Below, piece by piece: positions 2,869 through 42,313 of a DNA stretch of 43,597 nt. The notes under the pieces are model-generated. The model saw only the letters and a list, made by a program, of their open reading frames with translations. It was not told the DNA's origin and did not search any database. The stretch comes from a virus. The stretch covers positions 1-43,597 of the IMG/VR virus record IMGVR_UViG_3300008108_000423; one strand, written 5' to 3'. A program made the position numbers and the translations under genes. Positions within the stretch are counted from its first letter, which is position 1. Every line of letters begins with the position of its first letter.

Positions 2869-3783
2869 TTATCGGTTAAAGTCGTTTTTGTCAACATATT
2901 TTCTTAAAGAAAATGCTGAATCATACCACATTGGATCAGCAGATTTTTGTGATCTAATGTTCATGATTGCATTTCTTTTAGACTTAGCCCAAGCATATCC
3001 AGAATCTCCACCCCAAAGAAGCCAAGCGATTTTACCATTAGATGGTCTCTCTGAGTTATTCCAGTCTTTGCCTTGCTTGTCTACTTCGTGGCGTGAAAAG
3101 AAAGAATACATCCTTAATACTGTTCCTGGACTTAATTCTTTTCTATTTGCTAAATCTCTTGCACGTGCAACGCCCACTGCTGTACCGCCACGTCCAAACT
3201 TTCTTCTTAATTCTAATCCTCTGCGAGCATTTGATGCCATAGATTCTGTAGGTCTTAAATCTAAATCTTCTAAACTTCTTTTTGACATATCCATTTCATG
3301 ATCTGGATTATCCATATCGTCTCTTACATCGCTTCCTACATTTACATACCCATCAGGAATTACTGCAAATCTACAAGCACCTTCTTCTTCGATTGGCATT
3401 TCTAATATTGCACATGCAACGGATGATTTATGTAATGCACAGTTGCCACATTTAACACCAATTTCTGCATTTTCATTATCTTCTCCATTTTCGTAGCCAA
3501 CCCAAATTCCCTCTGCTTTATCAAGAGGTCCTGCCTCTTGTGCTAACTTTAATAAAGAGTCTGCAAGCATTTGTTCTGCATCAGACAATTGATCATATAG
3601 GGGCTTGCCTTCCCATTCTTCTGCCTTATTTACTTTTTTGCTGTCTGCTTCTGCTGCATATAATGCACGTTGTTGTTGTATAGCGGATGCTCTTGTTTGA
3701 TGGCATCCATGAGCACCAGATGGTCCTACTACGGCATAGCCGCCCTTGCATCCTGGGCCATTTCTAATAATATCGTAAGGCAT
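2869..3783 (-). CDS. Phage-conserved two-module protein with a four-cysteine cluster, function unknown
   Basis: Three parts can be seen in the 304 residues. Residues 1-45 form a small module (CKGGYAVVGPSGAHGCHQTR, then a helix ending QQRALYAAE) of a kind also found fused to phage head-maturation proteins. Residues 110-140 hold four cysteines, C112-x2-C115-x8-C124-x12-C137, probably a metal or Fe-S site. Residues 180-270 hold a conserved domain: NARRGLELRRKFGRGG, then VARARDLANRKELSPGTVLRM, FFSRHE, and finally IAWLLWGGDSGYAWAK. I have seen this last domain in many phages beside packaging or capsid genes, but know no function for it. It follows the terminase genes here. There is no Shine-Dalgarno; an extended -10 box lies six bases before the ATG (see 3790..3798), suggesting a leaderless mRNA. 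Confidence 0.85.
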   Translation of the reverse strand: MPYDIIRNGPGCKGGYAVVGPSGAHGCHQTRASAIQQQRALYAAEADSKKVNKAEEWEGKPLYDQLSDAEQMLADSLLKLAQEAGPLDKAEGIWVGYENGEDNENAEIGVKCGNCALHKSSVACAILEMPIEEEGACRFAVIPDGYVNVGSDVRDDMDNPDHEMDMSKRSLEDLDLRPTESMASNARRGLELRRKFGRGGTAVGVARARDLANRKELSPGTVLRMYSFFSRHEVDKQGKDWNNSERPSNGKIAWLLWGGDSGYAWAKSKRNAIMNIRSQKSADPMWYDSAFSLRKYVDKNDFNR

Positions 3784-3785
3784 AG

Positions 3786-4157
3786 TTAAATTATATCATT
3801 ATCTTCAAGATCTCTTTGACGCTTATATAATAAATTTTCAAGGAAGAATCTTTCTTCATCTGGTAGGGTATCCTTTACATTCATCACATGATCTAAGTCT
3901 TTAATCATAACCATTGGTACCCCATCTTTATCAAACATCATTTCTATATGGCCATCATTCCATAGTTTAAAGGCTAGTTCATTAATCATCTTAAAATGTT
4001 CATCAAAAAGTTCTGGCAATATTTCTTGACATTTAGGCGTTAGGCCATAGGTAAACTGATTACTTTTTTTGTCAAATCCTATTACTTCTAAAGCACCCAT
4101 ATCTATTAGTCTTTGAATAAGATCACTATATTCTTCTTCACTTACATCGTCTATCAT
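3786..4157 (-). CDS. Hypothetical protein, winged-helix-like N-terminus
   Basis: The 123-residue product begins with a helical segment (SEEEYSDLIQRLIDMGALEV) followed by a short strand pair (IGFDKKSNQFTYGLT). This layout recalls the last helix and wing of a winged-helix domain, typical of a truncated transcription-factor fold. The middle has DEHFKMINELAFKLWNDGHI, and the C-terminus is an acidic helix. It is coupled to the large terminase gene (four-base overlap) and lies between terminase and the two-module protein, so a packaging-related role is possible. No specific family was recognised. Confidence 0.75.
   Translation of the reverse strand: MIDDVSEEEYSDLIQRLIDMGALEVIGFDKKSNQFTYGLTPKCQEILPELFDEHFKMINELAFKLWNDGHIEMMFDKDGVPMVMIKDLDHVMNVKDTLPDEERFFLENLLYKRQRDLEDNDII
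3790..3798 (-). promoter_or_regulatory. Extended -10 promoter, probably leaderless
   Basis: On the minus strand TGA-TATAAT (3798 to 3790) is followed by exactly six bases (TTAACT) and then the ATG of the 304-residue protein. A sigma-70-type start site would fall at or next to that ATG. No Shine-Dalgarno is present in the interval. The box overlaps the last codons of the upstream gene. This matches the layout of leaderless promoters common in Actinobacteria. Confidence 0.6.
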
Positions 4158-5932
4158 ACTAATCTATACCCCCCACTAAACCAGTTTTCTGACTTTGGTT
4201 TTATTTTATCTGGTAGAAAATCATCTGCGTTATCTTTATCTACTCCACCCCTAGACCAAGTGTGAATATCTACTTCTTTTATTCTGTTTCTTTCTGTATT
4301 TGATATAGCATTGTATACAGATCCACACATAGCATCTGCTAAGTCTTTAGACTTCTTTCTAGGGTGGTCTACTCTATTACCAATAATTCTAAGTTCTAAT
4401 AGTTCTTCAAGCAATATATCAATATGGGGAGCATTAATTCTTTCCTCATAAAATAACATAGTTAAATCTTCATAGTGTTTCTTTGCTACAGATAGGGTAT
4501 CAGTCTTTATTCCTACCTGTTTTAATTCCTGTTGAATATCGAATGATTGCCAACGATCAAATGTAACTAAACCTAAATTAAACCCTTGTCTTCTTAGATC
4601 GATAATCCAGTTTTTAACTTCACTAAGATCTACTGGGCCTTCACGCTTTGGTTCCCACCATGCAATTGCATCTACAACTACATGAGGAACTATCTGTTCA
4701 TAGTTATTAAATGATTGAACATTTACCCATTTATCTACGTGAGCAATTGATACGGCACACTTGTCATGCTTCTGTGCTAAGTCAGCATGAACATAATAAA
4801 CAACATCTTCTTTTGGTTTAAAGTTAAGATCAAATCTTCTAGAGTGATCCAGTGGATTACGATTTGATAAACCCTTTTCAATCTTATCTCTTGATTTAAA
4901 GAATGCATCAGATGATACAGTTGGCATACAGGCAAAACGCATTAATGCATCGCTTGGATCTGTTAGAAATGCTATTTTAAAATCTTCAATCTTTCTTGTA
5001 GGATTCATCTCCCATGTTGGTCTGCGTAAAGCAAATACACCAGGGTACTTATATGCCTCTATATGATCTTCATCCCATTCTACTTCAAATGAATTATTTG
5101 GATCATCTTCGCTCATGACTGGATTAATTACAAACTTATGTTTTCTAAGAACTGTTTGTTTTTCTGCAACTACATCTTCATATCTTTTAGAAATAAAATC
5201 ACCCTTGTATCTAGGAAATGAAAGAAGGATTACCTTTCCATAATCAGGAAAACGAGAGTCTACAGAGCCTCTAAATGCTTTATATAAATTGTCAGCAGTC
5301 TTACCTTGATCATTTCCACCTGCACCTTCCATAGAAAAACCAGATATTTCATCAAGCACTGCTAATATTAAGTTTAAACCTTCTGCAGATTCTCTTTCAG
5401 AGTGACCAGAGTAAACAGTAATTGCTTTATTAAATTCCATGTTGTCTACCTTGGCTTCATATTTTCCAGCAAACCATGGTGACTGTTCTATTTTAGATTT
5501 AAATCCTTTAAAGAATACGTTCTTTGCTTGTTGTGCGTTTACCGCTACGTTAATAAGATCTATTGCATCTCCACTAGGTTTTCCAAAGTATCTAGAAGGA
5601 TCTTTCAGGCATAGTAATTTATATACTAAATAGGCACAACCTATTGTAGATGTATGGTCCTTGCCGCTACCCTTTCCACACATAAGAATAACTTCGGACT
5701 TTGTATATTTTTTATAATGCTCTTCGCCTTTTTCTTTGCCAAGCAATCTAATAATATCTTCTTTTTTATATATCTGGCTCATGCATTCTGCAAGAGTATA
5801 TTGGTACTCAGATAGTTCTGGCTGATTTAGATAATCTTTTCCAGTTACAAATGTTTTAATGTCTACTGGATTTTCTTCAAATGGACTTTCATCCAGTGCT
5901 TCTATAAAGTCACTAAAATCAATCGTTGTCAA
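4154..5932 (-). CDS. terL: Terminase large subunit (DNA packaging ATPase/nuclease)
   Basis: TerL powers DNA translocation into the prohead and cuts the concatemer. The ATPase half shows Walker A GKGSGKD (residues 86-92, K91) and Walker B ILAVLDEIS with D194 and E195 (catalytic glutamate). The RNase H-like nuclease half shows three acidic positions: D384 in VHADLAQ, D459 in VTFDRWQS, and D530/D533 in KDLADAM. Length (592) is normal for a two-domain TerL. The start is TTG at 5932 (MTTIDFSDF), overlapping the small subunit gene by 14 bases, which implies coupled translation. The portal gene lies far away near the other end of the window. All motifs are intact, so the call is secure. Confidence 0.95.
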   Translation of the reverse strand: MTTIDFSDFIEALDESPFEENPVDIKTFVTGKDYLNQPELSEYQYTLAECMSQIYKKEDIIRLLGKEKGEEHYKKYTKSEVILMCGKGSGKDHTSTIGCAYLVYKLLCLKDPSRYFGKPSGDAIDLINVAVNAQQAKNVFFKGFKSKIEQSPWFAGKYEAKVDNMEFNKAITVYSGHSERESAEGLNLILAVLDEISGFSMEGAGGNDQGKTADNLYKAFRGSVDSRFPDYGKVILLSFPRYKGDFISKRYEDVVAEKQTVLRKHKFVINPVMSEDDPNNSFEVEWDEDHIEAYKYPGVFALRRPTWEMNPTRKIEDFKIAFLTDPSDALMRFACMPTVSSDAFFKSRDKIEKGLSNRNPLDHSRRFDLNFKPKEDVVYYVHADLAQKHDKCAVSIAHVDKWVNVQSFNNYEQIVPHVVVDAIAWWEPKREGPVDLSEVKNWIIDLRRQGFNLGLVTFDRWQSFDIQQELKQVGIKTDTLSVAKKHYEDLTMLFYEERINAPHIDILLEELLELRIIGNRVDHPRKKSKDLADAMCGSVYNAISNTERNRIKEVDIHTWSRGGVDKDNADDFLPDKIKPKSENWFSGGYRLV

Positions 5933-6440
5933 TTACTACCACCTCAGTTTGGATTTCTGAAAGACGTTTCATAATTTCCTCTCTGATTTCTGGATGACCT
6001 GTTGCAATATCTTTTAATATCTTGATAAGAATATCGTGCTTTCTTTCCATTTCAATAATTTGTTCTGCTATTTCTTTATTGTCTAATAGTCCAGCCTTTT
6101 GTAGCATTTCAAGTCTTTTTGTTTCAATATCTGCAATAAGTTTAATAGATGTAGTTTTTGCTGTAAGATTTGCAGTAGAGTCTGCAGCGTCAATAACTTC
6201 ATATGCTTTTTTAATTAATGATGAAAAGTGTTGATCTGCACCAGCAAGTGCTTCTTTTGCTCTTGCGTGAATTGCTTGATTATTGGAAGCCATTACACGC
6301 CAATCACTTAGTAGTGACATTACTCTTGGTCTAGGAATATCTAGCGATCTAGAAATTTCTGCAGCATCGTGACCTTTTAGATACTCAGAGGCAACCTTGT
6401 TAACCAAGTCTAAATGTTTTACTAAATCATCTGTGCTCAT
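5919..6440 (-). CDS. terS: Terminase small subunit candidate (HTH DNA-binding packaging protein)
   Basis: The N-terminal 50 residues form a helix-turn-helix (VASEYLKGHDAAEISRSLDIPRPRVMSLLSDWRV, described here in two parts because of length: the recognition helix is PRPRVMSLLSDW). The rest is long and helical (residues 60-165), as in small terminase oligomerisation domains. It directly precedes and overlaps the large terminase gene, the usual place for TerS, which recognises the packaging site on phage DNA. The role is inferred from fold and position; no pac or cos site was identified. It overlaps the upstream DUF1599 gene by 14 bases. Confidence 0.8.
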   Translation of the reverse strand: MSTDDLVKHLDLVNKVASEYLKGHDAAEISRSLDIPRPRVMSLLSDWRVMASNNQAIHARAKEALAGADQHFSSLIKKAYEVIDAADSTANLTAKTTSIKLIADIETKRLEMLQKAGLLDNKEIAEQIIEMERKHDILIKILKDIATGHPEIREEIMKRLSEIQTEVVVIDND

Positions 6441-6762
6441 CTAATGTCCTTAATAATACAAGGTAGCCAATAAGATCAAGTATTGTATCCTCTGATGCAT
6501 ATTCGCTGCCCTTCTTTATTCTATTAAGTTTATCATCAATTCTAATATTAAGTTGTTCTTTTGGCTCTGCCTTACTAAATATATTAATAGGGTGGCTATA
6601 GGAACTGCCGTATGACTGATTCTTCTTGATAAGTAACTCTGCTATATCAAGGCATTCATCTAGTATCTTTCGACCAGCAGGTGCTTGTGTAGAGATATCC
6701 CTAATAAACTTCATTCTATCTTCTAGTTGTTTATCTATATCTATTCTAGGATATTCGGCCAT
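6427..6762 (-). CDS. DUF1599 / nucleotide modification associated domain 1 (Nmad1) protein
   Basis: The 111-residue product matches the DUF1599 (Nmad1) pattern: a helix with LLIKKNQSYGSSYSHPINIFSK, then EPKEQLNIRIDDKLNRIKKG, then EDTILDLIGYLVLL. The conserved asparagine, tyrosine, arginine and aspartates of the family are present. Members occur widely in phages and were proposed from genomic context to take part in modified-nucleotide metabolism; the chemistry is not established. The helical fold resembles MazG-like NTP pyrophosphatases in general layout. It is coupled at both ends (one-base overlap upstream, 14 bases downstream) and sits between DNA-metabolism and packaging genes. Confidence 0.85.
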   Translation of the reverse strand: MAEYPRIDIDKQLEDRMKFIRDISTQAPAGRKILDECLDIAELLIKKNQSYGSSYSHPINIFSKAEPKEQLNIRIDDKLNRIKKGSEYASEDTILDLIGYLVLLRTLDEHR

Positions 6763-6914
6763 TATTTCCTCTTTGTCTTTTTAATTTTAAATTTTGCCAT
6801 GTATACATAGATAGTCTCTGTACTGCATCCGCATTCTTTTGCAACCTCTTCAGGAGTCTTCTTATCATTTATAATCCTTTTTGTTAACCACAATTGATTA
6901 GTATAGAGTTTCAT
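6762..6914 (-). CDS. Small helix-turn-helix protein
   Basis: A 50-residue product made almost only of a homeodomain-like/sigma-region-4-like HTH: LTKRIINDKKTPEEVAKECG then CSTETIYVYMAKFKIKK, with the recognition helix at about residues 29-40. I chose the ATG at 6914 (MKLYTNQLWLT), eight bases after the RuvC-like stop, in preference to upstream in-frame codons that would overlap that gene by 41 bases and read unlike this family. Such mini-HTH proteins are common in actinophages. It could regulate the packaging genes downstream, which it leads, but that is only inference. Confidence 0.75.
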   Translation of the reverse strand: MKLYTNQLWLTKRIINDKKTPEEVAKECGCSTETIYVYMAKFKIKKTKRK

Positions 6915-6921
6915 TTTATCA

Positions 6922-7533
6922 CTAACCCTGTACCTTGTCAACATTTGTAGGTTCGTTTGCAAGTTTATGCCAGTTATTACTTGAGTACCATCCGATTGCT
7001 ATAGAGTCAGCAACATCGTCATCTTCAACACTTAAATCAAACTCTATATTTATTTTCTTTATAGTTCTTGCTTTTCTAAATTCTCTTTCTTTTTGTTTAT
7101 ACCAAGAGAATGATTTGTCATGACCGTATAAATCTCTAATAGCCAACTTTTCTTCTTTTTTAAGTTTGCCATTTCCTATCCAATTTTGCCAAGCAACTGG
7201 AGAGCAAGATGCTACAACCCTGTTTCCAGAGGTTTGTGCTGATCCTACAATTGCTCCTTGAACTAAAGCCAAGTTCATAGCAGTTTTTTGTGAGTTTGTA
7301 TATATAGCAGACTCTATAACTATTGCATCTATTTCAAAGTCTTTTAAAAATGGTATTAATTTTCTGCATGCATCCCCAGCCTTTTCGTATACATGCTTTC
7401 CATGAAAATTAATTTTACCAAACTTGTGTAAAACTCCTTCTTTAAATATAGAAAATGCCATAGAGTTAGTTGAAGCATCTATAGCCATAATAGTTTTAGG
7501 GTGTCCAATATATAATAGTTTATTCTTTTTCAT
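6922..7533 (-). CDS. RuvC-like Holliday junction resolvase
   Basis: RuvC-family enzymes cut four-way DNA junctions made during recombination-dependent replication and help clear branches before packaging. The acidic active-site set of the RNase H fold is visible (numbering from the TTG two codons upstream): D21 in IMAIDAST, E76 in AIVIESAI, and D175 plus D178 in EDDDVADSIAIGWY. Length is close to the usual for phage RuvC. I prefer the ATG at 7533, nine bases after AAGGAT, over the TTG at 7539, whose spacing to that site would be only three. It overlaps the upstream zinc-finger gene by 14 bases and lies in the recombination cluster with RecA and the Fe-S nuclease. Confidence 0.88.
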   Translation of the reverse strand: MKKNKLLYIGHPKTIMAIDASTNSMAFSIFKEGVLHKFGKINFHGKHVYEKAGDACRKLIPFLKDFEIDAIVIESAIYTNSQKTAMNLALVQGAIVGSAQTSGNRVVASCSPVAWQNWIGNGKLKKEEKLAIRDLYGHDKSFSWYKQKEREFRKARTIKKINIEFDLSVEDDDVADSIAIGWYSSNNWHKLANEPTNVDKVQG

Positions 7534-7813
7534 AATCAAAATATCCTTTAATTTCTTTCATTAGTTTATCTACCTGTTTATTATTTACAAGGCAACTATC
7601 ACAAAATTTAGAATCATTATATACGCTTAGCAATGTATTACATCCCCCAGCACATCTTCTTTCTTTTTTAAGCCTAGTTCTAAATTTAGACTGATGATAC
7701 CTTTGTGATATCTTTTGTTTTGTTGAATTGGTTCTACAGTCGGATGAACAATAGATTTGGTTTCTAATATGAGAATCAAATTCTTTTTCACACCACTGAC
7801 ATACCTTTATCAT
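7520..7813 (-). CDS. Double zinc-finger protein
   Basis: The 97-residue protein carries two four-cysteine sites. The first is C5-x2-C8 with C22-x3-C26 (CQWCEKEF, then YCSSDCR); the second is C54-x3-C58 with C71-x2-C74 (RRCAGGCN, then FCDSCL). Between them lies a basic stretch (KQKISQRYHQSKFRTRLKKERR) suited to nucleic acid contact. The first half resembles the zinc-binding start of HNH-type endonucleases, but I see no HNH catalytic histidine-asparagine motif. It overlaps the Fe-S nuclease gene by four bases (ATGA) and the RuvC gene by 14. A DNA-binding accessory role is plausible but unproven. Confidence 0.75.
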   Translation of the reverse strand: MIKVCQWCEKEFDSHIRNQIYCSSDCRTNSTKQKISQRYHQSKFRTRLKKERRCAGGCNTLLSVYNDSKFCDSCLVNNKQVDKLMKEIKGYFDYEKE

Positions 7814-8589
7814 TCAAGATCTTTCCTAGACTCAATCTTGATATCGCCCACTGGCTTTGTTTGACATACCTTGAGGAACATGCAGCCTTTACAATCTCTA
7901 GAGTTATATTTAACTCTGTATGGATTCTCTGGTAGTTTTCCTTCCTTAAACGCAGCCTCTACACTTTTCATCCAGTCAAAGAAGTAGTTTACAAAGTCTT
8001 TATACTTTTGATTTAGTCTGATAGGGAACATTAACATTTCATGATTGTTTTTATTCTCATATATTAATATTCCAAATGCTTGCTTCATAATTTTCATATA
8101 GATTAGTAGTTGTTCTATATGGTAATTAGCAGGCTTCTTAGTTCTTTGAAATCCCTCATCTGTTTTAGTTTTAATTTCAGTAAGAATATTTTGATCATTC
8201 CATTTGATAACAGCATCTGTTTTACCAGATATGGTTGGGTTTTCATATTTTAACTGTGCTTCTTTTGTTACTAATATGCCAGCATTTTCCATTGCTGTTT
8301 CAATTCTTGTGTGTCTGTCTGATCCAGAGTCCATATTAGCAACTTCATACCAAGTATTAGTATTTTCTGCTTCATTACCCTCAAACCATAGATACCACAT
8401 TCTAGGGCATTTGCCAGCCCCATACGTTAATCCAGAGGGTGTAAACCCTGTTCTCTTAGCAAAGTATGGACCTTTTTTATGCTCATACCCGTCATGAATC
8501 TTATCTATAATTTCATTTAAATTTATACTGCTTTCATCACTATGTTTCTCATCTTTAGACAAAATCTTATTAACTAATTTTTTTGACAT
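7810..8589 (-). CDS. Cas4/RecB-like PD-(D/E)XK nuclease with 4Fe-4S cluster
   Basis: The full set of family residues is visible: H93 (motif I, SDRHTRIE), D125 (SGKTDAVI), E138-x-K140 (LTEIKTK), and the QxxxY motif Q160-x3-Y164. Four cysteines that would hold an Fe-S cluster bracket the nuclease as in Cas4 and AddB: C61 (GKCPRMW), then C233-x2-C236-x5-C242. This family performs 5'-to-3' exonuclease resection, and in phages it usually works with RecA-type recombinases; no CRISPR locus is present. It lies three genes from RecA. It overlaps its neighbours by one and four bases, so the cluster is translated as a unit. Confidence 0.9.
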   Translation of the reverse strand: MSKKLVNKILSKDEKHSDESSINLNEIIDKIHDGYEHKKGPYFAKRTGFTPSGLTYGAGKCPRMWYLWFEGNEAENTNTWYEVANMDSGSDRHTRIETAMENAGILVTKEAQLKYENPTISGKTDAVIKWNDQNILTEIKTKTDEGFQRTKKPANYHIEQLLIYMKIMKQAFGILIYENKNNHEMLMFPIRLNQKYKDFVNYFFDWMKSVEAAFKEGKLPENPYRVKYNSRDCKGCMFLKVCQTKPVGDIKIESRKDLE

Positions 8590-10344: not shown

Positions 10345-10356
10345 ATACCTATCTTT

Positions 10357-14339: not shown

Positions 14340-14348
14340 GTTATATCA
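14340..14348 (-). promoter_or_regulatory. Candidate extended -10 promoter for the gp32-like/dnaE/recA group
   Basis: The minus strand reads TGA-TATAAC from 14348, where TGA is also the stop codon of the primase gene. A leader of about 30 bases with an AAGGAG site would follow before the gp32-like ATG. The last base differs from the consensus, and no good -35 box was found, so this is a moderate-to-weak call. Confidence 0.4.
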
Positions 14349-15299
14349 TTGTAGCATAGAAGACACTATGTCGTCAAATTTATCTACAAACTTTTTTAAG
14401 TCATTGTCTGATAAATCGGACACATCTTTTATGCCTTCTGGTAAAGATGGTGCTATGCATCCACTTCCAAAATAACTTATCATTTTTTTAGACATGTTTT
14501 TGCCAGCCTCATCATTATCACCCAAGACAACAACTTGATTAAAGTATTGCTTAAGTAATTTTCTTTGTTCTTTTGATATAGTTGCACCAAGAGTTGCTAC
14601 TGCATGAACACCTACTTGTTCAAGTCTAATGGCATCAAATGATGACTCTACAACAAAAACTTTATCGTATCTTTTTGCTCTTTGCAAATTAAACAAGGTT
14701 TTGCTTTTAGGTAATCCAGGAGTATTTTTAAACACCTTACCCTCTATGGATCTACCAACAAATCCTAAACATAAACCTTCTGGAGAATATACTGGAATAG
14801 TTACCATGTCTTGCTTTTCGGAGTATCCAAGTTTATATTTGATAACACTATCTTTATATATGTTTCTATTTTTATAGTAAGACATAGCCTTTGAACTTTC
14901 AAATACATTTTTATGCAATCTTTCTATAACTTCTAAATCATATTCTTGAAAATCTATTTTTTTATCTAATGTTTCTTGTAGTGCTTCAACTAAGTTTTTA
15001 TTATCAGACTTAGAATCTATAAGCCTTGCTGCTTCAAAGTATGATCTTCCAGAAGCCTGCATAACTACTTCTGTTAACTCTTTCGTTTCTTGACAAGCAA
15101 AACAATAAAACATACCATTTGTTTTGTGAACTTCTGCAGCGGGTGTTCTTGAGTTATTATGAAATGGGCAAAATATAATAAAGTCTATATCTACTTCTGA
15201 TACTATATCTATGCCAGAGGCTAGGAGACTTCTTCTGATTTGATTTTCTGTATAATAGTTGATCGTATTGTCGTATTCTTGTCTATTCCTAGTATGCAT
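14346..15299 (-). CDS. DnaG-type primase
   Basis: The protein makes RNA primers at the replication fork. It has a CHC2-type zinc finger with C44-x2-H47-x18-C66-x2-C69 (CPFHNN, then YCFAC). A TOPRIM catalytic domain follows, with E218 in VFVVESSFDAIRL and D261/D263 in VVLGDNDEAGK. Length (317) is shorter than bacterial DnaG because the C-terminal helicase-binding domain is missing, which is normal for phage primases. The start at 15299 makes a 79-base overlap with the upstream gene; no good later start exists before the zinc finger. It follows the DnaB-type helicase by two genes, making a standard helicase-primase pair. Confidence 0.92.
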   Translation of the reverse strand: MHTRNRQEYDNTINYYTENQIRRSLLASGIDIVSEVDIDFIIFCPFHNNSRTPAAEVHKTNGMFYCFACQETKELTEVVMQASGRSYFEAARLIDSKSDNKNLVEALQETLDKKIDFQEYDLEVIERLHKNVFESSKAMSYYKNRNIYKDSVIKYKLGYSEKQDMVTIPVYSPEGLCLGFVGRSIEGKVFKNTPGLPKSKTLFNLQRAKRYDKVFVVESSFDAIRLEQVGVHAVATLGATISKEQRKLLKQYFNQVVVLGDNDEAGKNMSKKMISYFGSGCIAPSLPEGIKDVSDLSDNDLKKFVDKFDDIVSSMLQ

Positions 15300-15535
15300 T
15301 TTGCATTCTCTTTTCCAACATATACTCCGTAAACTGATAACTTAAAATCAAATGTCTTTCCATTATAACTTACTGTAAAGTCTGTGTCAATATCGTATCT
15401 AGGAACATAGCCTTTATTCCTCATTCCACTTATGACCATGAATATGTATTGGTCTTTTAATCTTGATATAAAAGACTCATCAAAGATTTCACCCTCTAGG
15501 CAAAATCGATGAATCTTTTTATGGCTATATGACAT
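15221..15535 (-). CDS. Hypothetical protein, 104 residues, expressed from a leaderless-type promoter
   Basis: I do not recognise a family. The sequence has an N-terminal helix-rich half (ESFISRLKDQYIFMVISGMR) and a C-terminal beta-rich half (YDIDTDFTVSYNGKTFDFKL, then SVYGVYVGKENAKCILGID). It lies between helicase and primase genes and overlaps primase by 79 bases, which suggests a replication-linked role such as a primase or helicase accessory. There is no Shine-Dalgarno before the ATG; TGATATAAT sits six bases upstream. Confidence 0.7.
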   Translation of the reverse strand: MSYSHKKIHRFCLEGEIFDESFISRLKDQYIFMVISGMRNKGYVPRYDIDTDFTVSYNGKTFDFKLSVYGVYVGKENAKCILGIDKNTTIRSTIIQKIKSEEVS

Positions 15536-15541
15536 ACCATA

Positions 15542-15550
15542 ATTATATCA
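15542..15550 (-). promoter_or_regulatory. Extended -10 promoter, probably leaderless
   Basis: On the minus strand TGA-TATAAT (15550 to 15542) is followed by six bases (TATGGT) and the ATG of the 104-residue gene. The spacing puts the transcription start at the ATG, and no ribosome-binding site fits between. The box lies in the 22-base gap behind the helicase gene and has the same layout as 3790..3798. Confidence 0.6.
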
Positions 15551-17288: not shown

Positions 17289-17834
17289 TCACCACGTTTC
17301 TTCTGTCCATACGGGGATAAATTCCCCGCTTTTTGTTTTGGTATATAACATTATAGCGTCTCCAAGTAAAGAACGCAAGTCCTTTTCTGTTGGTACATCA
17401 AACCTAGGAGTCACCCTTCCATCTTTTCTTGGTCTTCCTTTATGTATTGTAGCAATAATATCTCTAATTGTAAAGATATCATCTTCTGAATAATAAGCAT
17501 ATTGTCTAAATATTCTTTTACCGCCTATTACAGCACCAGTTGGTGGCATAACTAATTCTTTTTTAATCCATCTTTCAAGTTGCATCCTTGATCTATTAAA
17601 GATCCTCATAGTATTTTTTACAGTATATGCTCTTTTTCTATGTTTTTTAAAATCAGAATACAGCATTGTTTGCTCTTTATCTTGGATAAAATTATATAAA
17701 ACACATATATTGTTAGCCTTATTTACATGTATTAATCTTACTATTTCTTTATTAAGAAAAAATATTGTAGAACTTGGTTTTACAGGCTGTTGCCAGTTAT
17801 CTTTAACCTGGCCTTCTCTACCTTCATTATCCAT
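17289..17834 (-). CDS. MerR-like helix-turn-helix DNA-binding protein
   Basis: The central part (about residues 70-135) looks like a MerR-type winged HTH: YTVKNTMRIFNRSRMQLERW, then a wing with PTGAVIGGKRIFRQYAYYSE and DDIFTIRDIIATIHKGRPRK. The N-terminal 65 residues are a small beta-rich domain, and the C-terminus is acidic. MerR-like single domains in phages act as excisionases, origin-binding proteins or transcription regulators. With helicase and primase just downstream, origin recognition or early gene control are both possible. The ATG at 17834 overlaps the upstream zinc-ribbon gene by 55 bases with no good Shine-Dalgarno, so the true start may lie further in. Confidence 0.7.
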   Translation of the reverse strand: MDNEGREGQVKDNWQQPVKPSSTIFFLNKEIVRLIHVNKANNICVLYNFIQDKEQTMLYSDFKKHRKRAYTVKNTMRIFNRSRMQLERWIKKELVMPPTGAVIGGKRIFRQYAYYSEDDIFTIRDIIATIHKGRPRKDGRVTPRFDVPTEKDLRSLLGDAIMLYTKTKSGEFIPVWTEETW

Positions 17835-17998
17835 CTTGCAACTTCTCCATGTTTATCTGGATGATTATACATCTCTCTTTTGCCACATACAAGGCAGTAC
17901 AACTCAAGGTGATCGTATGAAAGAAATACTCTGTCAACAAGCATCCTTCCATTACATTTAGTACATCTTAATTCTTTTTCATTTACTATATGTGCCAT
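17780..17998 (-). CDS. Zinc-ribbon protein, 72 residues
   Basis: Four cysteines in two CxxC knuckles (C12/C15 in RCTKCNG; C35/C38 in YCLVCGK) with about 20 residues between them form a classic zinc ribbon. A basic C-terminal helix (GEVARWIMKVEKARLK) follows. It is the first gene of the replication block after the tail genes. It has no Shine-Dalgarno, and a TGA-TATACT box lies eight bases before the ATG (18007..18015), suggesting its own leaderless transcript. It may be a small transcription or replication cofactor; the function is unknown. Confidence 0.78.
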   Translation of the reverse strand: MAHIVNEKELRCTKCNGRMLVDRVFLSYDHLELYCLVCGKREMYNHPDKHGEVARWIMKVEKARLKITGNSL

Positions 17999-18006: not shown

Positions 18007-18015
18007 AGTATATCA
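18007..18015 (-). promoter_or_regulatory. Extended -10 promoter at the tail/replication boundary, probably leaderless
   Basis: TGA-TATACT (18015 to 18007, minus strand) lies eight bases before the ATG of the zinc-ribbon gene. The intervening TTTGAACC has no ribosome-binding site. It falls in the 21-base gap between the last tail gene and the first replication gene, where a new transcription unit would be expected. Confidence 0.55.
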
Positions 18016-18019: not shown

Positions 18020-18442
18020 TTAGTTAGGTATACCGATTGCTATTAAGTTAACTCTTAGGTCTACTTTACCACTAGAGTTAAATCTTACTACCACGGTTGC
18101 ACTGGATGTTGTAATGTTTCTAAGTGTAAAAATAACATCATCTCCAGGTGTTGAACCAGATCGGTTAAATATTGATGCTGTTACTACTGGTGTAAACTTA
18201 AATCTAGGGAATGTAAAGGTAACGCTATCTGTAGCATTGGCCTTTGCTTCAGTGGTTGTTAAAGCCAACTCTTCTGCATAAAACTTAATATTGCTGGTAG
18301 TGTCGCTATTTGCATTGACTGTAGAAACAGATGTATTTCTAATTGCTATTCTATTTTCAATAGAATTTATCTGGCTAACCATTTCATAGATATAATTAAC
18401 ATCTAATGGTTGACCACGTTCAGGTAGTGATATTGCTGCCAT
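18020..18442 (-). CDS. Small tail-tip or fibre-type protein
   Basis: The 140-residue product starts with a helical, coiled-coil-like segment (LDVNYIYEMVSQINSIENRI). It then turns into a beta-rich C-terminal domain (TDSVTFTFPRFKFTPVVTAS, then DVIFTLRNITTSSATVVVRF), similar in pattern to lectin-like tips of phage fibres. It is the last gene of the tail block, directly after the tail spike, and a role in adsorption is likely from context. GGAGGT lies four bases before the ATG. A TGG-TATACT box overlaps this leader, but using it would leave no room for the ribosome site. Confidence 0.65.
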   Translation of the reverse strand: MAAISLPERGQPLDVNYIYEMVSQINSIENRIAIRNTSVSTVNANSDTTSNIKFYAEELALTTTEAKANATDSVTFTFPRFKFTPVVTASIFNRSGSTPGDDVIFTLRNITTSSATVVVRFNSSGKVDLRVNLIAIGIPN

Positions 18443-18462
18443 AATACCTCCAGTATACCATG

Positions 18463-21792: not shown

Positions 21793-22521
21793 TTAGTTCA
21801 CCTCGTATATTGTACCATTAGAATCGATTTGGACCTCTACTACTTCTTTATCCCTCATATTAACTACCTCAATGATTAGATTTCCACTTTCATCTATATA
21901 TACATAGTCTGTTAGTCCAAGGGCTTCTAAATATTCATCACTAGGTATTTTATTATTTAAATTAATAGAGTTACTTATAAAAGTAGAATCAGATGTTTGT
22001 ACAGATATTAATTCATCAGGGTTAAACTTTCTTCTTATATCAGATAGATTGGATATAATATTATATGATGGATTATTTCCCTCTACCGTGTCGTGTCTGA
22101 CAAACTTTACTAACTCATTAGCACCTATGTTTTCAAACAATAAGTTTTCTATGGTCTTAGCATCTAATTCTTCTGTTGCTAGATTAACCACGTCTCTTTC
22201 TGGAACCATTACTGGTGGTGGCGTAAATGAAAAATCTCCTGTATCTGGTGGTGGTAACGCTGGACCTGGATCTGGTGGCAATACCGTATCGCCTCCCCCT
22301 TGCTTCCCCCTTTTCTTTCTTTTTTTATCTACTCCAATTGGAGCCCTAAATGGCTTTGTGTATGAATAAGCAAATAAATTATTTGTAGATGTTCCAGGCT
22401 TTCTAGTTCCCTGTATTCCAGTATTGGCTTTTTTAACAGCCTCTGCTAACTTCTGTACTTTTGGACTACTGGATGGAGAGGCTTTTCCTCCTCCACCTTT
22501 ACCTGCTGCTGGTTTTGCCAT
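21793..22521 (-). CDS. Basic, proline/glycine-rich tail-region protein
   Basis: Residues 1-100 are low complexity: a lysine/glycine/serine-rich start (AKPAAGKGGGGKASPSSSPK), a KKRKKRGKQGGG basic cluster, and a proline run (LPPDPGPALPPPDTG). The C-terminal 140 residues form an acidic folded part (ELDAKTIENLLFENIGANEL, then DEYLEALGLTDYVYIDESGN). The gene is coupled on both sides (TAATG at the upstream end). A flexible linker or adaptor at the tail tip fits, but I do not recognise the family. Confidence 0.7.
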   Translation of the reverse strand: MAKPAAGKGGGGKASPSSSPKVQKLAEAVKKANTGIQGTRKPGTSTNNLFAYSYTKPFRAPIGVDKKRKKRGKQGGGDTVLPPDPGPALPPPDTGDFSFTPPPVMVPERDVVNLATEELDAKTIENLLFENIGANELVKFVRHDTVEGNNPSYNIISNLSDIRRKFNPDELISVQTSDSTFISNSINLNNKIPSDEYLEALGLTDYVYIDESGNLIIEVVNMRDKEVVEVQIDSNGTIYEVN

Positions 22522-34077: not shown

Positions 34078-34106
34078 ATTATAGCACAAAACCCACCTCT
34101 CGACAA
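34078..34106 (-). promoter_or_regulatory. Sigma-70-like promoter for chaperone and tape measure genes
   Basis: On the minus strand TTGTCG (34106-34101; four of six matches to TTGACA) is separated by 17 bases from TATAAT (34083-34078). TG lies one base upstream of the -10, making it extended. The -35 lies in the loop of the terminator at 34088..34116, so the two elements are interleaved. A leader of about 20 bases with AAGGAGGAT follows. Confidence 0.6.
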
Positions 34107-37518: not shown

Positions 37519-37542
37519 AATAAATAAAATTCCTCCTTACTA

Positions 37543-37551
37543 ATTATATCA
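37543..37551 (-). promoter_or_regulatory. Extended -10 promoter for the connector/neck genes
   Basis: TGA-TATAAT (37551 to 37543, minus strand) lies four bases behind the T tract of the capsid terminator. It is followed by a short leader carrying AAGGAGGA (37538-37531) and the adaptor ATG at 37518. No matching -35 was found, as is usual for extended -10 promoters. Confidence 0.6.
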
Positions 37552-37555
37552 TTGT

Positions 37556-37594
37556 AAAAAGATTGAAGGGAGGATATTTTACTATCCCCCCTTC
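37556..37594 (-). terminator. Strong Rho-independent terminator after the major capsid gene
   Basis: A 12-bp stem (37583-37594 with 37565-37576) has one G-U wobble in minus-strand RNA and a six-base loop (GTAAAA). After a short AATC it is followed by TTTTT (37560-37556). It begins 18 bases behind the capsid stop and is the strongest terminator in the window. Confidence 0.85.
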
Positions 37595-37611
37595 TGTGAA
37601 CTAAAAGTTAA

Positions 37612-38601
37612 TTAGTTCTTTGAGAATGCAACTGCATCTGTTTCTTCGATTTGAACACCAAAACGTAAGAAAGTTGTATATTCTACAGTGTCTTTCTTAG
37701 GTTGGAATTCGCGATGTACAGTAATGTCTCTTTGGAATCCCCAAATACGGTTTTCTGGGAATGTCAATGAGATATAGTCTGCTGGCATCAAAGGAACTTC
37801 AACTAGAGGAATTCCTAGTACACGGTATGTAACAGGTGCACCTAATGTTTGTGGTGCTACTCCGTCAATAACGCGTTCTACGATTCTTTCTGATGGCAAG
37901 TTACCGCTTGAGCCGAGACCATTGATGATATCTGCTACTGTTTCGCTAGAAGCGTAGAATTTCATTGCACCGCGTGATGCACGATACTTACGTGGCATTG
38001 CAAGAACTAATGCTTGCAAATCTTCCACGGTTGTACCAAATGTACCACCAGCATCGTTACCAGTTTGTTCTTTTACATAGAAACCTTCCAAAATGTTAAG
38101 GAATGAGTTTGTACCAGAACCTGTACCGTTGATAGCAAGATCTTCAAGATCGTTTGCAAATGCACGAGTCATTGTGCGAACTAAGTGATCTTCTAATCCT
38201 GCACCTTCGATGTTGTCTTCAAGTGCTTCTGTTGATACTTCCCAGTCAAGACGGATTTTCTTTGTAGAAAGTTCCACCTTTGTGAAAGTAACACCAGCGT
38301 TGGTGTATGTTGCGTCTGCTTGTGCAGCAGCACGGATAACACGTTCTCCAACGTTTAACTTCTCTAGTTCTGCTGAGTTGGCACGCATTGTTACACGGCG
38401 ACCATCACGAGCAAGAACTTGTTGTTCGAAAATATATTCGATAAATTGAGCAGATTGTTCTGGATTTAAGATACCGCCACCATCGGCTGGTGATGCTGTA
38501 CCTGCAGGTCCTAGGTTTGCTGAAGGAGTTGATACTCCACCAATTCCACCTGAAACGATTGATCCAGTTGCTGCTGATTTTTCTAAAATTTCTTCTGACA
38601 T
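37612..38601 (-). CDS. Major capsid protein (HK97 fold)
   Basis: The 329-residue protein is the main shell subunit. It has the HK97-fold order: an N-terminal glycine/alanine-rich arm (residues 1-45), then E-loop (VTFTKVELSTKKIRLDWEVS), spine helix (LEDHLVRTMTRAFANDLEDL), P-domain (FGTTVEDLQALVLAMPRKYR) and A-domain (YRVLGIPLVEVPLMPADYIS, then GFQRDITVHREFQPKKDTVE). The arm lacks a long delta domain, so scaffolding must come from another protein, and the nested product at 38626..39219 is the candidate. GGGAGGTGA lies seven bases before the ATG. The gene is GC-richer than its neighbours, fitting high expression, and is bounded by its own terminator. Confidence 0.93.
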   Translation of the reverse strand: MSEEILEKSAATGSIVSGGIGGVSTPSANLGPAGTASPADGGGILNPEQSAQFIEYIFEQQVLARDGRRVTMRANSAELEKLNVGERVIRAAAQADATYTNAGVTFTKVELSTKKIRLDWEVSTEALEDNIEGAGLEDHLVRTMTRAFANDLEDLAINGTGSGTNSFLNILEGFYVKEQTGNDAGGTFGTTVEDLQALVLAMPRKYRASRGAMKFYASSETVADIINGLGSSGNLPSERIVERVIDGVAPQTLGAPVTYRVLGIPLVEVPLMPADYISLTFPENRIWGFQRDITVHREFQPKKDTVEYTTFLRFGVQIEETDAVAFSKN

Positions 38602-38608
38602 AATTTTT

Positions 38609-38617
38609 TCACCTCCC
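38609..38617 (-). promoter_or_regulatory. Strong ribosome-binding site of the major capsid gene
   Basis: GGGAGGTGA on the minus strand is a near-full complement of the 16S anti-Shine-Dalgarno, seven bases from the ATG at 38601. It is among the strongest sites in the window and decides the capsid start. Confidence 0.8.
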
Positions 38618-38625
38618 AGTGAATG

Positions 38626-39219
38626 TTAACGATAGAGGTCAGCGGAATTGAGGAAACGCCCGCCCCACATCGACCTTTTTTGTATTTTGTTTTCCTGCAC
38701 GACCCCGCCGAGGTCGCCAGACTTGCGGATAGCGGTATCATCTTCTAGTGAGTCAACACGCTTTCCAAACTCTTCTGCGTTGTTTTTCATTGTTGTAACT
38801 TCCTCGTTTACTTTTGCAACGCTTTTTTGCAATTCGGCAATTTGATCATTAATTGATTTTACAGTTGCCACTAAATCTCCAACTGCTGCAGTAACGGACT
38901 TGCTAACTTCTTCAACAGAAGTTTTGACTGTTTCAACAGCCTTTGCCAAGTCAGCATCTTTGCTCTCTTCAGCAGGAGTGGTGGCATCTTCAACTACAGT
39001 ATCAGATTTTTCAACTGCTTCTGCTGCTGCTTCTGCTGGTGCTTCTGCTGCTGCTTCTGCTGGTGCTTCTGCTGCTGCTTCTGCTGGTGCTTCTGCTGCT
39101 GCTTCTGCTGGTGCTTCTGCTGCTACTTCTGCTTCTGCTGTTTCAGACTCAACGATTTCATCTACAACGACTACTTCGTCTTCAACTGCCTTAGTTACTT
39201 CTTTTTCTGTATTTGCCAT
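38626..39219 (-). CDS. Nested in-frame scaffold protein from an internal start
   Basis: An ATG at 39219 (M374 of the protease) follows AAAGGAGGGG with a six-base spacer, far better than chance in this AT-rich DNA. It would express a 197-residue scaffold: MANTEKEVTKAVEDE, an Ala/Glu/Pro repeat arm, a coiled coil and a basic C-terminus. The arrangement copies lambda C/Nu3, where scaffold is the C-terminal part of the protease gene read from an internal start. It would supply excess scaffold over protease. The capsid protein itself carries no scaffold domain. Expression is predicted, not shown. Confidence 0.72.
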   Translation of the reverse strand: MANTEKEVTKAVEDEVVVVDEIVESETAEAEVAAEAPAEAAAEAPAEAAAEAPAEAAAEAPAEAAAEAVEKSDTVVEDATTPAEESKDADLAKAVETVKTSVEEVSKSVTAAVGDLVATVKSINDQIAELQKSVAKVNEEVTTMKNNAEEFGKRVDSLEDDTAIRKSGDLGGVVQENKIQKRSMWGGRFLNSADLYR

Positions 39220-40338
39220 ATTATTCCCCTCCTTTACGGAATTATCAATTGACATCCCATCAAGTGATTTTGATGAATTCATTCTTAATGTTTTCATCTT
39301 GTGTCCGACAATTGTATCCGTAGGTTTTCCATCTCTGTAAACCCTAATAGCAACTGCTGGATCTTCTGGCGTTCCTGTAATAGTAAAAGAACTATTTGGA
39401 ACCTTTATTTTTCCATTGCGAACGACTCTAGTAACTTTTCCTCTTGCAGTACCACCGCTTGAGTTCCAAGATACCATGTCGCCAACTCTAACATTACTTG
39501 CTTTACCCATTTCTTCTTTTTCTTCTTTATCATGCCACATTGCCATATGATCTGGGCAATTTTTTGGATCTTCACAATCATCCATTGAATGTGGATTTTT
39601 ATTTGGTGTCATTTCGTTTGTGATTGCACCATGTTCTTTTAATAAGTCTTTAATTCTTTGTGTTTTTTCTGTATCTGTTGTTTCAACAAATCCAATTAGT
39701 AATTCACCTGTACGTGGATCTTCTTCTTTAGAAAGTCTAACTAATCCATTATCTTTTGACCAATATACATTTTCAACAGTCATCTTAGATAAAAATCCAT
39801 CAACAACATTAGTTCCATCTTCTTTCTTTTGAATAGATAAAATGTTTGCAAATTGATTTGCTGGATTATCTACTAAAGATAATTCACTCAAGTCATAATC
39901 TTTAATAACTCTAATTGCTTTATCCATCTGGGGGTCATATTGATCTTCACTATCTTTAATACTACCGCCAATAGAAAAACCAGAAAGAGTACCGTCAAGA
40001 ACTTTTTCCCAAGTGTCTTGAGCACCTTTAGAAATGTAAGCATCTACATACACCCCATTATAAAACTTATCTTCTTCTTTGTTATAAAATTTATCTGCTT
40101 TGAATGACATTACTCTACCGACTGCGATAGGCATGTGCATTTCTCTTAGATTTCCACGGAATCTTTCAAATGCCTTAATACTAACATCTGTTGGGACAAT
40201 GTCTGACTGCTTGTCAACATTGTCTAGGGTTGCGAACCCTGAAACCATACGTTTTTCTTTATCGACTTTAGCGATTGGCATGGATAACTTTATAGAGTTA
40301 TCTTCAGAGTGCCAAAATGCTTTATGCAAATTAGTCAT
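38626..40338 (-). CDS. Capsid maturation protease (XkdF-like, S78_2) fused to a scaffold
   Basis: Residues 1-165 form an XkdF-type serine protease that matures proheads: H68 in EMHMPIAVGR and S122 in LSGFSIGGS as the catalytic pair, with YDLSELSLVDNPAN ending the domain. Residues 285-352 resemble the Hva1/tudor-like DUF2945 domain (VGDMVSWNSSGGTARG, PEDPAVAIRVYRDG, VGHKMKTLR). Residues 374-570 form a scaffold: acidic start, four APAEAAAE repeats (409-440), a coiled coil (VKSINDQIAELQKSVAKVNE) and a basic tail (KRSMWGGRFLNSADLYR). An internal ribosome-binding site and ATG (M374) would also release the scaffold alone. The gene follows the portal and precedes the capsid gene, as usual. Confidence 0.88.
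   Translation of the reverse strand: MTNLHKAFWHSEDNSIKLSMPIAKVDKEKRMVSGFATLDNVDKQSDIVPTDVSIKAFERFRGNLREMHMPIAVGRVMSFKADKFYNKEEDKFYNGVYVDAYISKGAQDTWEKVLDGTLSGFSIGGSIKDSEDQYDPQMDKAIRVIKDYDLSELSLVDNPANQFANILSIQKKEDGTNVVDGFLSKMTVENVYWSKDNGLVRLSKEEDPRTGELLIGFVETTDTEKTQRIKDLLKEHGAITNEMTPNKNPHSMDDCEDPKNCPDHMAMWHDKEEKEEMGKASNVRVGDMVSWNSSGGTARGKVTRVVRNGKIKVPNSSFTITGTPEDPAVAIRVYRDGKPTDTIVGHKMKTLRMNSSKSLDGMSIDNSVKEGNNMANTEKEVTKAVEDEVVVVDEIVESETAEAEVAAEAPAEAAAEAPAEAAAEAPAEAAAEAPAEAAAEAVEKSDTVVEDATTPAEESKDADLAKAVETVKTSVEEVSKSVTAAVGDLVATVKSINDQIAELQKSVAKVNEEVTTMKNNAEEFGKRVDSLEDDTAIRKSGDLGGVVQENKIQKRSMWGGRFLNSADLYR
39019..39114 (-). repeat. Four tandem 24-bp repeats encoding APAEAAAE
   Basis: Four copies of a 24-base unit, seen on the plus strand as a pattern containing ggtgcttctgctgctgcttc, encode the eight-residue unit APAEAAAE at residues 409-440 of the protease-scaffold. 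The copies are nearly identical at DNA level. They sit in the scaffold arm between the start and the coiled coil and may vary in number between strains. Confidence 0.9.
39226..39235 (-). promoter_or_regulatory. Internal ribosome-binding site within the protease-scaffold gene
   Basis: AAAGGAGGGG (39235 to 39226, minus strand) lies inside the open frame, six bases before the in-frame ATG at 39219. Its codons read R/K-E-G-type residues that are not constrained by a known domain. It supports a separate scaffold product. Confidence 0.72.
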
Positions 40339-40347
40339 ACTACTTCC

Positions 40348-40353
40348 ATTATA
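40348..40353 (-). promoter_or_regulatory. Weak candidate -10 box before the protease gene
   Basis: TATAAT on the minus strand lies nine bases before the ATG of the capsid protease, within a 44-base gap. It lacks the TGn extension and a good -35. GGAAG in the interval could be a poor ribosome site if an upstream transcript reads through. Listed with low confidence. Confidence 0.3.
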
Positions 40354-40382
40354 TTAGTATTTATAAGGGTTTTTAAAAACTG

Positions 40383-41942
40383 TTATAATACGGTTCTACC
40401 CTCGCCACCTGGACCTCGTCCAGTGGTGGTTGAAGGAGAATCACTAGCATTGTCAGTTCTTTGTTGATCCCTGCTTCTGTTTCCAGTTGCTTGTGCTGTT
40501 TGTTCTGCTCTTTGTTGAGCACCCAAAACAATTGGGTCTTGTCCCCCTAGTCTTGAAGGGTAACCAAGTCTTTCTCTTACTTCATTAGGAACAACTACCT
40601 GCATTCTTAGATATCTTTCATCTATTTGGCTTTGAGTAGTTTCATCTGTTAAGGTAAGTTCATTTAGTTTAAATTGTAAAATATCTGTTTTTTCTTTAAC
40701 AATTTTATTGATTACTTTTTCTAGGTTTCTTTGGGCTGGTCTAGCAACTTGTTCTTTGAATGTTCTATCAGAAGCGAGAGCAGAGGCAATAGAAACTCCA
40801 GCACCCCCTCCTACTTTAGAGAAAGGTACCTGGTGTGCCATCAAGATATCGTCTCTATTAGACTTACGGTATCTTTCAAACGATCCTTCTTGAATTCCAG
40901 CCTCAATAGGATCCATCTTAAATTCTACTTTGCTATCTGTTGTATCTCCTGGAAGTGGGATATACAGAGTTCTGTGACTTTGACCACGAAGTCCTGATTG
41001 CAAGAATCTAAATAACTTATCTTCTGCGTCTGAACTTAATTTAGCACCTTTTAGGGTTACTATATATCTAGGAACTGCTTTGTTTTCAAAGTAGTCAATA
41101 TTATATCTACCTGCTAAATTATCTCCTACCATTGATACTGATGATGCAATTGTATCTGGCACTCCGTAGTATGAAGTCTTTGGAGAGTATTTCTTGATAT
41201 GGATAAGTTCATTTGGTCTTGGATCAGTAGTTACTGGATTTGATTCTTTTCCTTGGAAGTTTCTAAAGAATACAACTCTTTGGTTAACTATTTGAATATA
41301 TCCATCACGAATACGGCGTACACGAATTGTAGTTGCTGGAATATGGCCAATGTAGCCTATTTCTCCATTTACTTTTCTACCTACTTCAATATATCCATTT
41401 CCTGTTGATTCAACATCTGTATAAACTTTTTCTAATATATGGCTAAATGTATCTTCATCGTTTAGATCTTCTAACCACTGTGTCATCTGTGCTTTTAGTC
41501 TTTGAAGTTTTCTTTGTGCTCTCATCAGTTGTTCTTCTGATTCTGCTTCTTCTAATCTAGCAGTTGTAGCATCTGTATTTTCAAAGTGGTATCCTAAGCC
41601 AACTATGTTTGATACCTTGGCATTAATTGCAGCATGGTTTGCAAATGAGTTTTCGTAAAACCAAGCAAGTTCATCTAAATTATATGGAGGAACAACAACA
41701 TCATATAGTCCGTATGCTGTAACAATATCCATTTCTGGGAATAATTGTTTTGATTTTGTGTTATCTTGTCCTGTAAAAACTTTGTTTATTGAGCGTGATG
41801 CTCTGCGTTTAAAATTTGAATCTAGCCCAGAATATGATTTTGCTACTTCAGCATCAATCATGAAGTCGTCTGACTTTTGTTGCTTTTCCATTCTGTCTAG
41901 GTTATCTATTCTAGCAACGTATTCGTATTCTTCATTCTCCAT
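40383..41942 (-). CDS. Portal protein
   Basis: The portal forms the dodecameric ring at one capsid vertex. The 519 residues show the PBSX/HK97-type portal start (VVPPYNLDELAWFYENSFAN, then HAAINAKVSNIVGLGYHFE), the wing with WLEDLNDEDTFSHILEKVYT, and core segments NGYIEVGRKVNGEIGYIGHI and PRYIVTLKGAKLSSDAEDKL. The stem (FERYRKSNRDDILMAHQVPF, then IASALASDRTFKEQ) and a glutamine/arginine-rich C-terminal tail follow. It overlaps the upstream gene by 11 bases and sits before the protease and capsid genes. Length is normal. Confidence 0.92.
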   Translation of the reverse strand: MENEEYEYVARIDNLDRMEKQQKSDDFMIDAEVAKSYSGLDSNFKRRASRSINKVFTGQDNTKSKQLFPEMDIVTAYGLYDVVVPPYNLDELAWFYENSFANHAAINAKVSNIVGLGYHFENTDATTARLEEAESEEQLMRAQRKLQRLKAQMTQWLEDLNDEDTFSHILEKVYTDVESTGNGYIEVGRKVNGEIGYIGHIPATTIRVRRIRDGYIQIVNQRVVFFRNFQGKESNPVTTDPRPNELIHIKKYSPKTSYYGVPDTIASSVSMVGDNLAGRYNIDYFENKAVPRYIVTLKGAKLSSDAEDKLFRFLQSGLRGQSHRTLYIPLPGDTTDSKVEFKMDPIEAGIQEGSFERYRKSNRDDILMAHQVPFSKVGGGAGVSIASALASDRTFKEQVARPAQRNLEKVINKIVKEKTDILQFKLNELTLTDETTQSQIDERYLRMQVVVPNEVRERLGYPSRLGGQDPIVLGAQQRAEQTAQATGNRSRDQQRTDNASDSPSTTTGRGPGGEGRTVL

Positions 41943-42297
41943 TTGACTTTAAACCTCTTTCTGCATCCATCCATGCACCGATATCTGTTTCGCTTGCAAT
42001 GTATCCTTCTTTCATTCTTTGAACTTGTTCTGAGTACTCAGCATCGGATACTCTTCTTATTCCTGGCATAAAAATTACTTTTCCTGCTGGTGCTCCGTAG
42101 TATTCTGCTGCTTGTTTTACCTTAGCCATCTTTTCAAGGTCGTATGGATGGCCAGGTATATTCATAACATTTCCTCTACCGTCTCCAAATGCTTTGCCAT
42201 TCTTATCCATTTGCCACACATATATGCCATATTTTTGTTGTTTATTTAAGACTGTTAACTTACTTTTGCCATTTTTTGGATCACCGTAATTTTTCAT
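41932..42297 (-). CDS. Conserved hypothetical protein preceding the portal gene
   Basis: I place the start at the ATG 42297 (MKNYGDPKNGKSKLTVLNKQ) because a -10-like box (42305..42313) lies seven bases upstream and no Shine-Dalgarno is present; a GTG two codons earlier is the alternative. The 121-residue product is basic at the start, has a small beta domain (KYGIYVWQMDKNGKAFGDGR) and ends with acidic helices (DAEYSEQVQRMKEGYIASET). It overlaps the portal by 11 bases, which suggests a role near the portal or packaging, but no family was recognised. Confidence 0.75.
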   Translation of the reverse strand: MKNYGDPKNGKSKLTVLNKQQKYGIYVWQMDKNGKAFGDGRGNVMNIPGHPYDLEKMAKVKQAAEYYGAPAGKVIFMPGIRRVSDAEYSEQVQRMKEGYIASETDIGAWMDAERGLKSNGE

Positions 42298-42304
42298 ATA
42301 CACA

Positions 42305-42313
42305 ATTGTACCA
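42305..42313 (-). promoter_or_regulatory. Extended -10 promoter before the portal operon, probably leaderless
   Basis: TGG-TACAAT (42313 to 42305, minus strand) is followed by seven bases (TGTGTAT) and an ATG. The spacing matches leaderless promoters seen elsewhere in the window. It lies two bases after the stop of the gene cut by the right edge and would start the head operon. Confidence 0.5.

Follow-up and report, generated by a model that had tools for sequence, protein, structure and literature searches.

The viral sequence IMGVR_UViG_3300008108_000423 from the IMG/VR database (43,597 nt, approximately 34% GC), analyzed here over its whole length and referred to as the window, raises the question of how expression begins at genes whose only signal before the ATG is a promoter-like box. 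In an initial annotation four such genes, starting at positions 3783, 15535, 17998, and 42297, were described as preceded by an extended -10 box, TGNTANNNT, at a distance of six to eight bases, and as lacking a Shine-Dalgarno (SD) sequence. All four boxes were located on the minus strand, with gaps (the number of bases between the end of the box and the start codon) of 6, 6, 8, and 7, respectively, and the SD is indeed absent before the four ATGs. The boxes are very probably sigma-70-type promoters placed at operon heads and giving leaderless or near-leaderless mRNAs; promoter activity, the exact start sites, and leaderless translation are deduced here from what is observed, i.e., the position and conservation of the boxes, their independence of the reading frame, the lack of an SD, and an actinobacterial setting.

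Placement of the Boxes in the Window

With 193 occurrences of TGNTANNNT in the window versus 179 expected, raw counting of the motif was rejected as uninformative; the motif is common in a genome of approximately 34% GC, and therefore nothing but its position can be informative. At gaps 5–9 it is found before five of the 50 gene starts, namely the four noted ones and ATG 18442, and before 0.8–1.6% of the other ATGs of the window (8/986 and 10/616 on the two strands). Shuffling of the 30 upstream bases gave a mean of 0.46 starts with a box and P(≥5) = 0.0002; chance is excluded as the source of the box placement.

The gene for the capsid maturation protease (ATG 40338), missed in the initial annotation, is a sixth gene with a close -10 box. 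At 18442 and 40338 the SD status is ambiguous, GGAGG or GGAAG being present after the box. The sequence between the box and ATG 18442 is GGAGGTATT, so that the SD-like GGAGG contained in it would fall 5' of the position where the transcript is predicted to begin. One base past the box at 42305..42313 there is also an in-frame GTG (42303), which is an unlikely start.

Conservation in Related Viruses

Three scans of IMG/VR yielded 240 related viral loci, in which the orthologue starts were set by homology to the window proteins, independently of the motif, and the upstream sequences were dereplicated. The orthologues are not independent, and the family counts given below are therefore conservation figures, not probabilities. 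In the 3783 family TGNTANNNT is kept at gap 6 in 31/31 orthologues, while a TATAAT-type box precedes all 43 members of the 15535 family at gaps 5–9 (mostly 6–7), in 23 of them with TGN. The extended box at gaps 5–9 is also present in 15 of the 26 orthologues of 17998 and, with TGN, in 42 of the 47 orthologues of 42297, against a shuffling expectation of 0.3–0.7 per family; the comparison of related genomes with shuffled upstream regions, proposed in the initial annotation, thus came out in favor of the boxes. The conservation also stands in orthologues less than 75% identical, and an SD 4-mer is found in 0–15% of the orthologues of these four families. Seven further 17998 orthologues have the box at 25–28 bases, where the homology-projected ATG may be wrong. 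In the 18442 family TGNTANNNT is located at gaps 5–9 in 16/40 orthologues, and in the protease family TATAAT at gap 9 in 34/36, with TGN in 0/36. Directly 5' of TANNNT, TGN is thus present in 31/31, 42/47, 23/43, 15/26, and 16/40 members of the 3783, 42297, 15535, 17998, and 18442 families, respectively.

Pooled, the four noted families have the extended box at gaps 6–9 in 111 of 147 dereplicated orthologues, and 44 other families have it at gaps 3–10 in 0/1,184. A blind scan of both strands of 241 records (3.03 Mb) for a strict extended -10 located 5–9 bases before an ATG that begins an open frame of 40 or more codons returned 265 hits, of which 254 belong to exactly five orthologous groups, the four noted and 18442.

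The box also does not follow the reading frame of the preceding gene. Before the 3783 orthologues the upstream gene stops at -5 (TAA/TAG), -15 (with the TGA contained in TGATATAAT as the stop codon), or -18 (TAG), and the box is constantly at gap 6; upstream stops also shift at 15535 and 42297. As the position of the box is constant while the stops vary in frame, a coding constraint cannot explain it.

These data bear on two other explanations. The genes could be expressed by translational coupling or reinitiation on long upstream messages, the AT-rich box being a ribosome-accessible stretch and no promoter. The four genes do lie 2–22 bases after the previous gene, and many other genes of the window lack an SD, so that the initial statement that SD absence is not a general trait is supported in part at best; these other genes, however, overlap or abut the gene preceding them and look translationally coupled. 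Such an origin of the boxes is very unlikely, in view of the conservation of a specific hexamer with TGN at a fixed distance and its absence from the 44 other families; moreover, the box is still present in the GC-richer Streptomyces phages (47–53% GC), which AT-richness alone does not predict. The box could also serve mainly as the operator of a phage regulator, overlapping the -10, as its strong conservation and the flanking letters common to some families might suggest, but the conserved letters are those of the -10 element itself and the flanks vary among the six families and among hosts, making this explanation extremely improbable.

Cultured Streptomyces and Rhodococcus Phages

The closest named relatives of the window virus are Streptomyces phages of the Stanwilliamsviridae and Rhodococcus phages. 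The portal and DNA polymerase are approximately 52–54% identical to those of Stanwilliamsviridae phages, the gene order is as in BillNye and Annadreamy, and the shared syntenic core comprises homologues of the portal, protease, capsid, tail, helicase, primase, DnaE-type polymerase, and terminase. Judged by this synteny, the window virus is a relative of the family. In the cultured Streptomyces and Rhodococcus phages TANNNT precedes the pre-portal gene at a distance of 6 or 7 bases in all phages examined (15/15), and the protease gene in 14/14 (at 6 bases in Streptomyces and 9 in Rhodococcus phages), several of these phages being closely related and the independent lineages therefore fewer than 15 and 14. 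In BillNye, Annadreamy, and Samisti12 a peak at gap 6 is seen on the coding and not on the opposite strand. The 15535 orthologue of the Streptomyces phages, which overlaps or directly adjoins the helicase gene, has no leaderless box before it, and the 15535 box thus belongs to the freshwater clade.

The cultured phages are also relevant to the explanation that the promoters are real and the true start codons lie farther downstream, which would give ordinary leadered transcripts. Starts are predictions, and in IchabodCrane (L257), NootNoot (L261), Tomas (L262), and BoomerJR (L259) the annotated start of the pre-portal and/or protease gene differs from the gap-6 ATG and is located in the -10 box, directly behind it, or at a more downstream site. 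The N-terminus just after the ATG is nonetheless conserved (MPYDI in the 3783 and M(S)YSHK in the 15535 orthologues), the distance between the ATG and the box is fixed, and the start codons of the boxed families are nearly all ATG, so that downstream starts are very improbable indeed. The deposited starts in the four phages are probably wrong, the ATG six bases past the box being likelier.

It is also worth adding that in BillNye (L242) an unannotated open reading frame (ORF; MHKTIK...) is present near 49140 between the helicase and primase genes, as a counterpart of window 15221–15535 and Annadreamy gene 54. In Streptomyces phages, at L255 4090–4165 and L242 15480–15555 and in the pre-portal regions, a TTTGC-like element, possibly a -35, lies approximately 18 bases 5' of the -10.

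The Host Setting

An actinobacterial host had been implied in the initial annotation, and the host lineage is, as far as gene content and relatives indicate, actinobacterial, because the window carries a gene of the WhiB family, which marks actinobacteria (PMC10202952), and Streptomyces and Rhodococcus phages are its nearest relatives in culture. The match spans window 1186–1353, and WhiB is present in 10 of the 24 related records tested. Portal relatives were found in three genome contigs, and the metagenome-assembled genomes (MAGs) to which these belong bear the labels Actinomycetota, cyanobacterium, and Cytophagaceae; the latter two (L245, L246) are probably misbinned viral contigs, and a genus-level host name was not reached from the three. 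The contig in the Actinomycetota MAG, with a 65% identical portal, has TGATATAAT nine bases before the protease gene.

In 316 kb of this MAG, whose identity as the host is unproven and which was analyzed with a simple ORF caller, TANNNT is located at 6–7 bases in 56 of 288 starts versus approximately 2–3 at other positions, and an SD precedes 1 of the 61 starts (1.6%) with a box at gaps 5–8 versus 22% of the remainder. The TGN extension is found in just 2/288 starts. The earlier idea that the phage copies host rules is thus upheld for the spacing and not for the TGN extension, the phage box being the stronger one.

Leadered Counterparts and Switching of Modes

At the operon heads 37518, 34052, 21791, and 14307 the same class of extended -10 is present farther upstream, together with an SD (Table 1). 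A split of the two initiation modes by gene class, as suggested in the initial annotation, was rejected as unsupported, because genes for the head, the tail, and replication also occur among the leadered ones, and because orthologues change from one mode to the other. The head-tail connector gene, leadered with an SD in the window (ATG 37518), has TATAAT six bases before the ATG in Annadreamy and BillNye (L255 7085, L242 21510). Among the 18442 orthologues the box is located either at 8–10 bases, i.e., leaderless or nearly so, or at 15–18 bases with AGGAG, i.e., leadered; this family (window 18452–18460, L092, L100, L132, and L141) offers a natural switch between the leaderless and the leadered design.

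Table 1. Promoter-like boxes, the genes that follow them, and the WhiB-family gene in the window.
Feature	Position	Strand	Remarks
Extended -10 TGATATAAT	3790..3798	-	Gap 6 to ATG 3783
Predicted leaderless gene, 304 aa, post-terminase, unknown function, phrog_2859	2869..3783	-	Conserved N-terminus MPYDI
Extended -10 TGATATAAT	15542..15550	-	Gap 6 to ATG 15535
Predicted leaderless gene, 104 aa, phrog_17515	15221..15535	-	First of primase/SSB/DNA polymerase block
Extended -10 TGATATACT	18007..18015	-	Gap 8 to ATG 17998
Predicted leaderless gene, 72 aa, zinc-ribbon-like (weak match)	17780..17998	-	Precedes helicase block
Extended -10 TGGTATACT	18452..18460	-	Gap 9 to ATG 18442
Predicted near-leaderless gene, 140 aa	18020..18442	-	Extended -10 at gap 9
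-10 TATAAT without TGN	40348..40353	-	Gap 9 to ATG 40338
Predicted near-leaderless gene, capsid maturation protease	38626..40338	-	phrog_9427, Peptidase_S78
Extended -10 TGGTACAAT	42305..42313	-	Gap 7 to ATG 42297
Predicted leaderless gene, 121 aa, phrog_9394	41932..42297	-	Immediately precedes portal gene
Extended -10 TGATATAAT, leadered gene	37543..37551	-	ATG 37518, SD AAGGAGG
Extended -10 TGCTATAAT, leadered gene	34078..34086	-	ATG 34052, SD AAGGAGG; 21/21 orthologues leadered with SD
Extended -10 TGGTACAAT, leadered tail gene	21809..21817	-	Start TTG 21791
Extended -10 TGCTACAAT, leadered SSB gene	14348..14356	-	ATG 14307
WhiB-family gene	1090..1368	-	PF02467, 49 bits vs cut-off 23.6; CxxCxxxxxC and GVWGG present

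The product of 17780–17998 has a weak TFIIB zinc-ribbon match, under the cut-off. Just 5' of the protease -10, at window 40354–40380 (minus strand) and in the freshwater-clade orthologues, a conserved TATAAACAC-like element is present, which is not a standard -35.

A Proposed Mechanism

The boxes would act as -10 elements, mostly extended (of the TGNTATAAT type), read by the host sigma-70-type RNA polymerase. If the final T of the -10 is taken as position -7, a gap of 6 would place +1 on the A of the ATG, and gaps of 7–9 would give a leader of 1–3 bases; the earlier claim that the spacing puts the transcription start at the ATG is supported to the extent that -10-like boxes place the start at the ATG or within approximately 3 bases of it. 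Ribosomes would initiate at the 5'-terminal AUG, a mode readily used in actinobacteria. Each box would open a transcription unit at a tight junction, preceding the pre-portal/head, protease, helicase, primase, or post-terminase block, and the view that the boxes mark junctions of plausible new transcription units agrees with the finding that each heads a plausible block. At other operon heads the phage would deploy the same extended -10 class with an SD leader.

Several points weigh against these promoters and their leaderless transcripts. No consistent shared -35 element was found in the freshwater clade, and the 17998 family, with 15/26, is less consistent than the others. The closeness of the genes to their upstream neighbors (2–22 bases) means that read-through and translational coupling could express them, and gaps of 8–9 would leave a leader of 1–3 bases, the transcript starts being predicted from the box spacing.

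WhiB-family proteins bind region 4 of sigma-A. The extended, putatively -35-free promoters and the phage WhiB, a candidate sigma-region-4 binder, might by analogy form one system, although this is rather unlikely: the phage WhiB would weaken -35-dependent host promoters and its own extended -10 promoters would stay active, as with gp39 of the Thermus phage P23-45. If so, leaderless transcripts would in addition make expression independent of initiation at an SD.

Known Systems and Significance

Leaderless genes occur widely among Actinobacteria (PMC3160421, PMC3898074), and bacterial leaderless genes are marked by a TA box approximately 12 bp before the start codon (PMC3160421). In M. tuberculosis TANNNT is located 7–12 bp before the start site, TGN raises activity, and starts within 5 bp are counted as leaderless (PMC3898074). 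The genes described here resemble the actinobacterial TA-led genes in lacking an SD, in the location of TANNNT approximately 12 bp 5' of the start codon, and in having a purine (the A of ATG) at the predicted start; a -35 consensus is absent in M. tuberculosis (PMC3898074, PMC3160421). Tested as TA-led genes, the genes described here have TANNNT at 5–9 bases above chance and no SD before the start. Unlike TA-led genes, the boxes are TATAAT-like, mostly with TGN (found in only 7% of M. tuberculosis TANNNT promoters and in 2/288 starts of the freshwater MAG), and are located at viral operon heads.

Among phages, SigA-like promoters have also been predicted in the Cluster O mycobacteriophages of the Corndog group (PMC4351075) and for gene 90 of Adephagia (PMC11373665), with +1 coinciding with the initial base of the start codon; one such promoter belongs to the structural operon (PMC4351075). 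These actinophages are of another lineage with a few predictions, whereas the present set was followed through hundreds of loci from three host settings. The Thermus phage phiYS40 produces leaderless middle and late mRNAs for whole gene blocks (PMC3594737); it differs in its Thermus host, the experimental evidence, and the IF2/IF3 changes, the present case being known from sequence. P23-45 (PMC7403470) similarly has extended -10 phage promoters needing no -35, together with the sigma-region-4 factor gp39, of which the WhiB gene here is a candidate analogue only; a factor resembling gp39 was not found here, no search aimed at it having been made.

Predicted leaderless promoters in actinophages are thus already known from the Cluster O mycobacteriophages (PMC4351075); new is the conserved set of predicted promoter boxes in the present phage lineage, extending to cultured phages, for which no published start-site map was found in the open-access literature. 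A large group of freshwater actinophages, together with its cultured relatives among the Streptomyces and Rhodococcus phages, retains these leaderless-type promoters at a fixed set of operon heads across large sequence distances. The predicted start sites are testable directly in lab-grown phages, and the finding provides corrected start codons for deposited genomes as well as natural pairs of orthologues in which one gene is leadered and the other leaderless by design.

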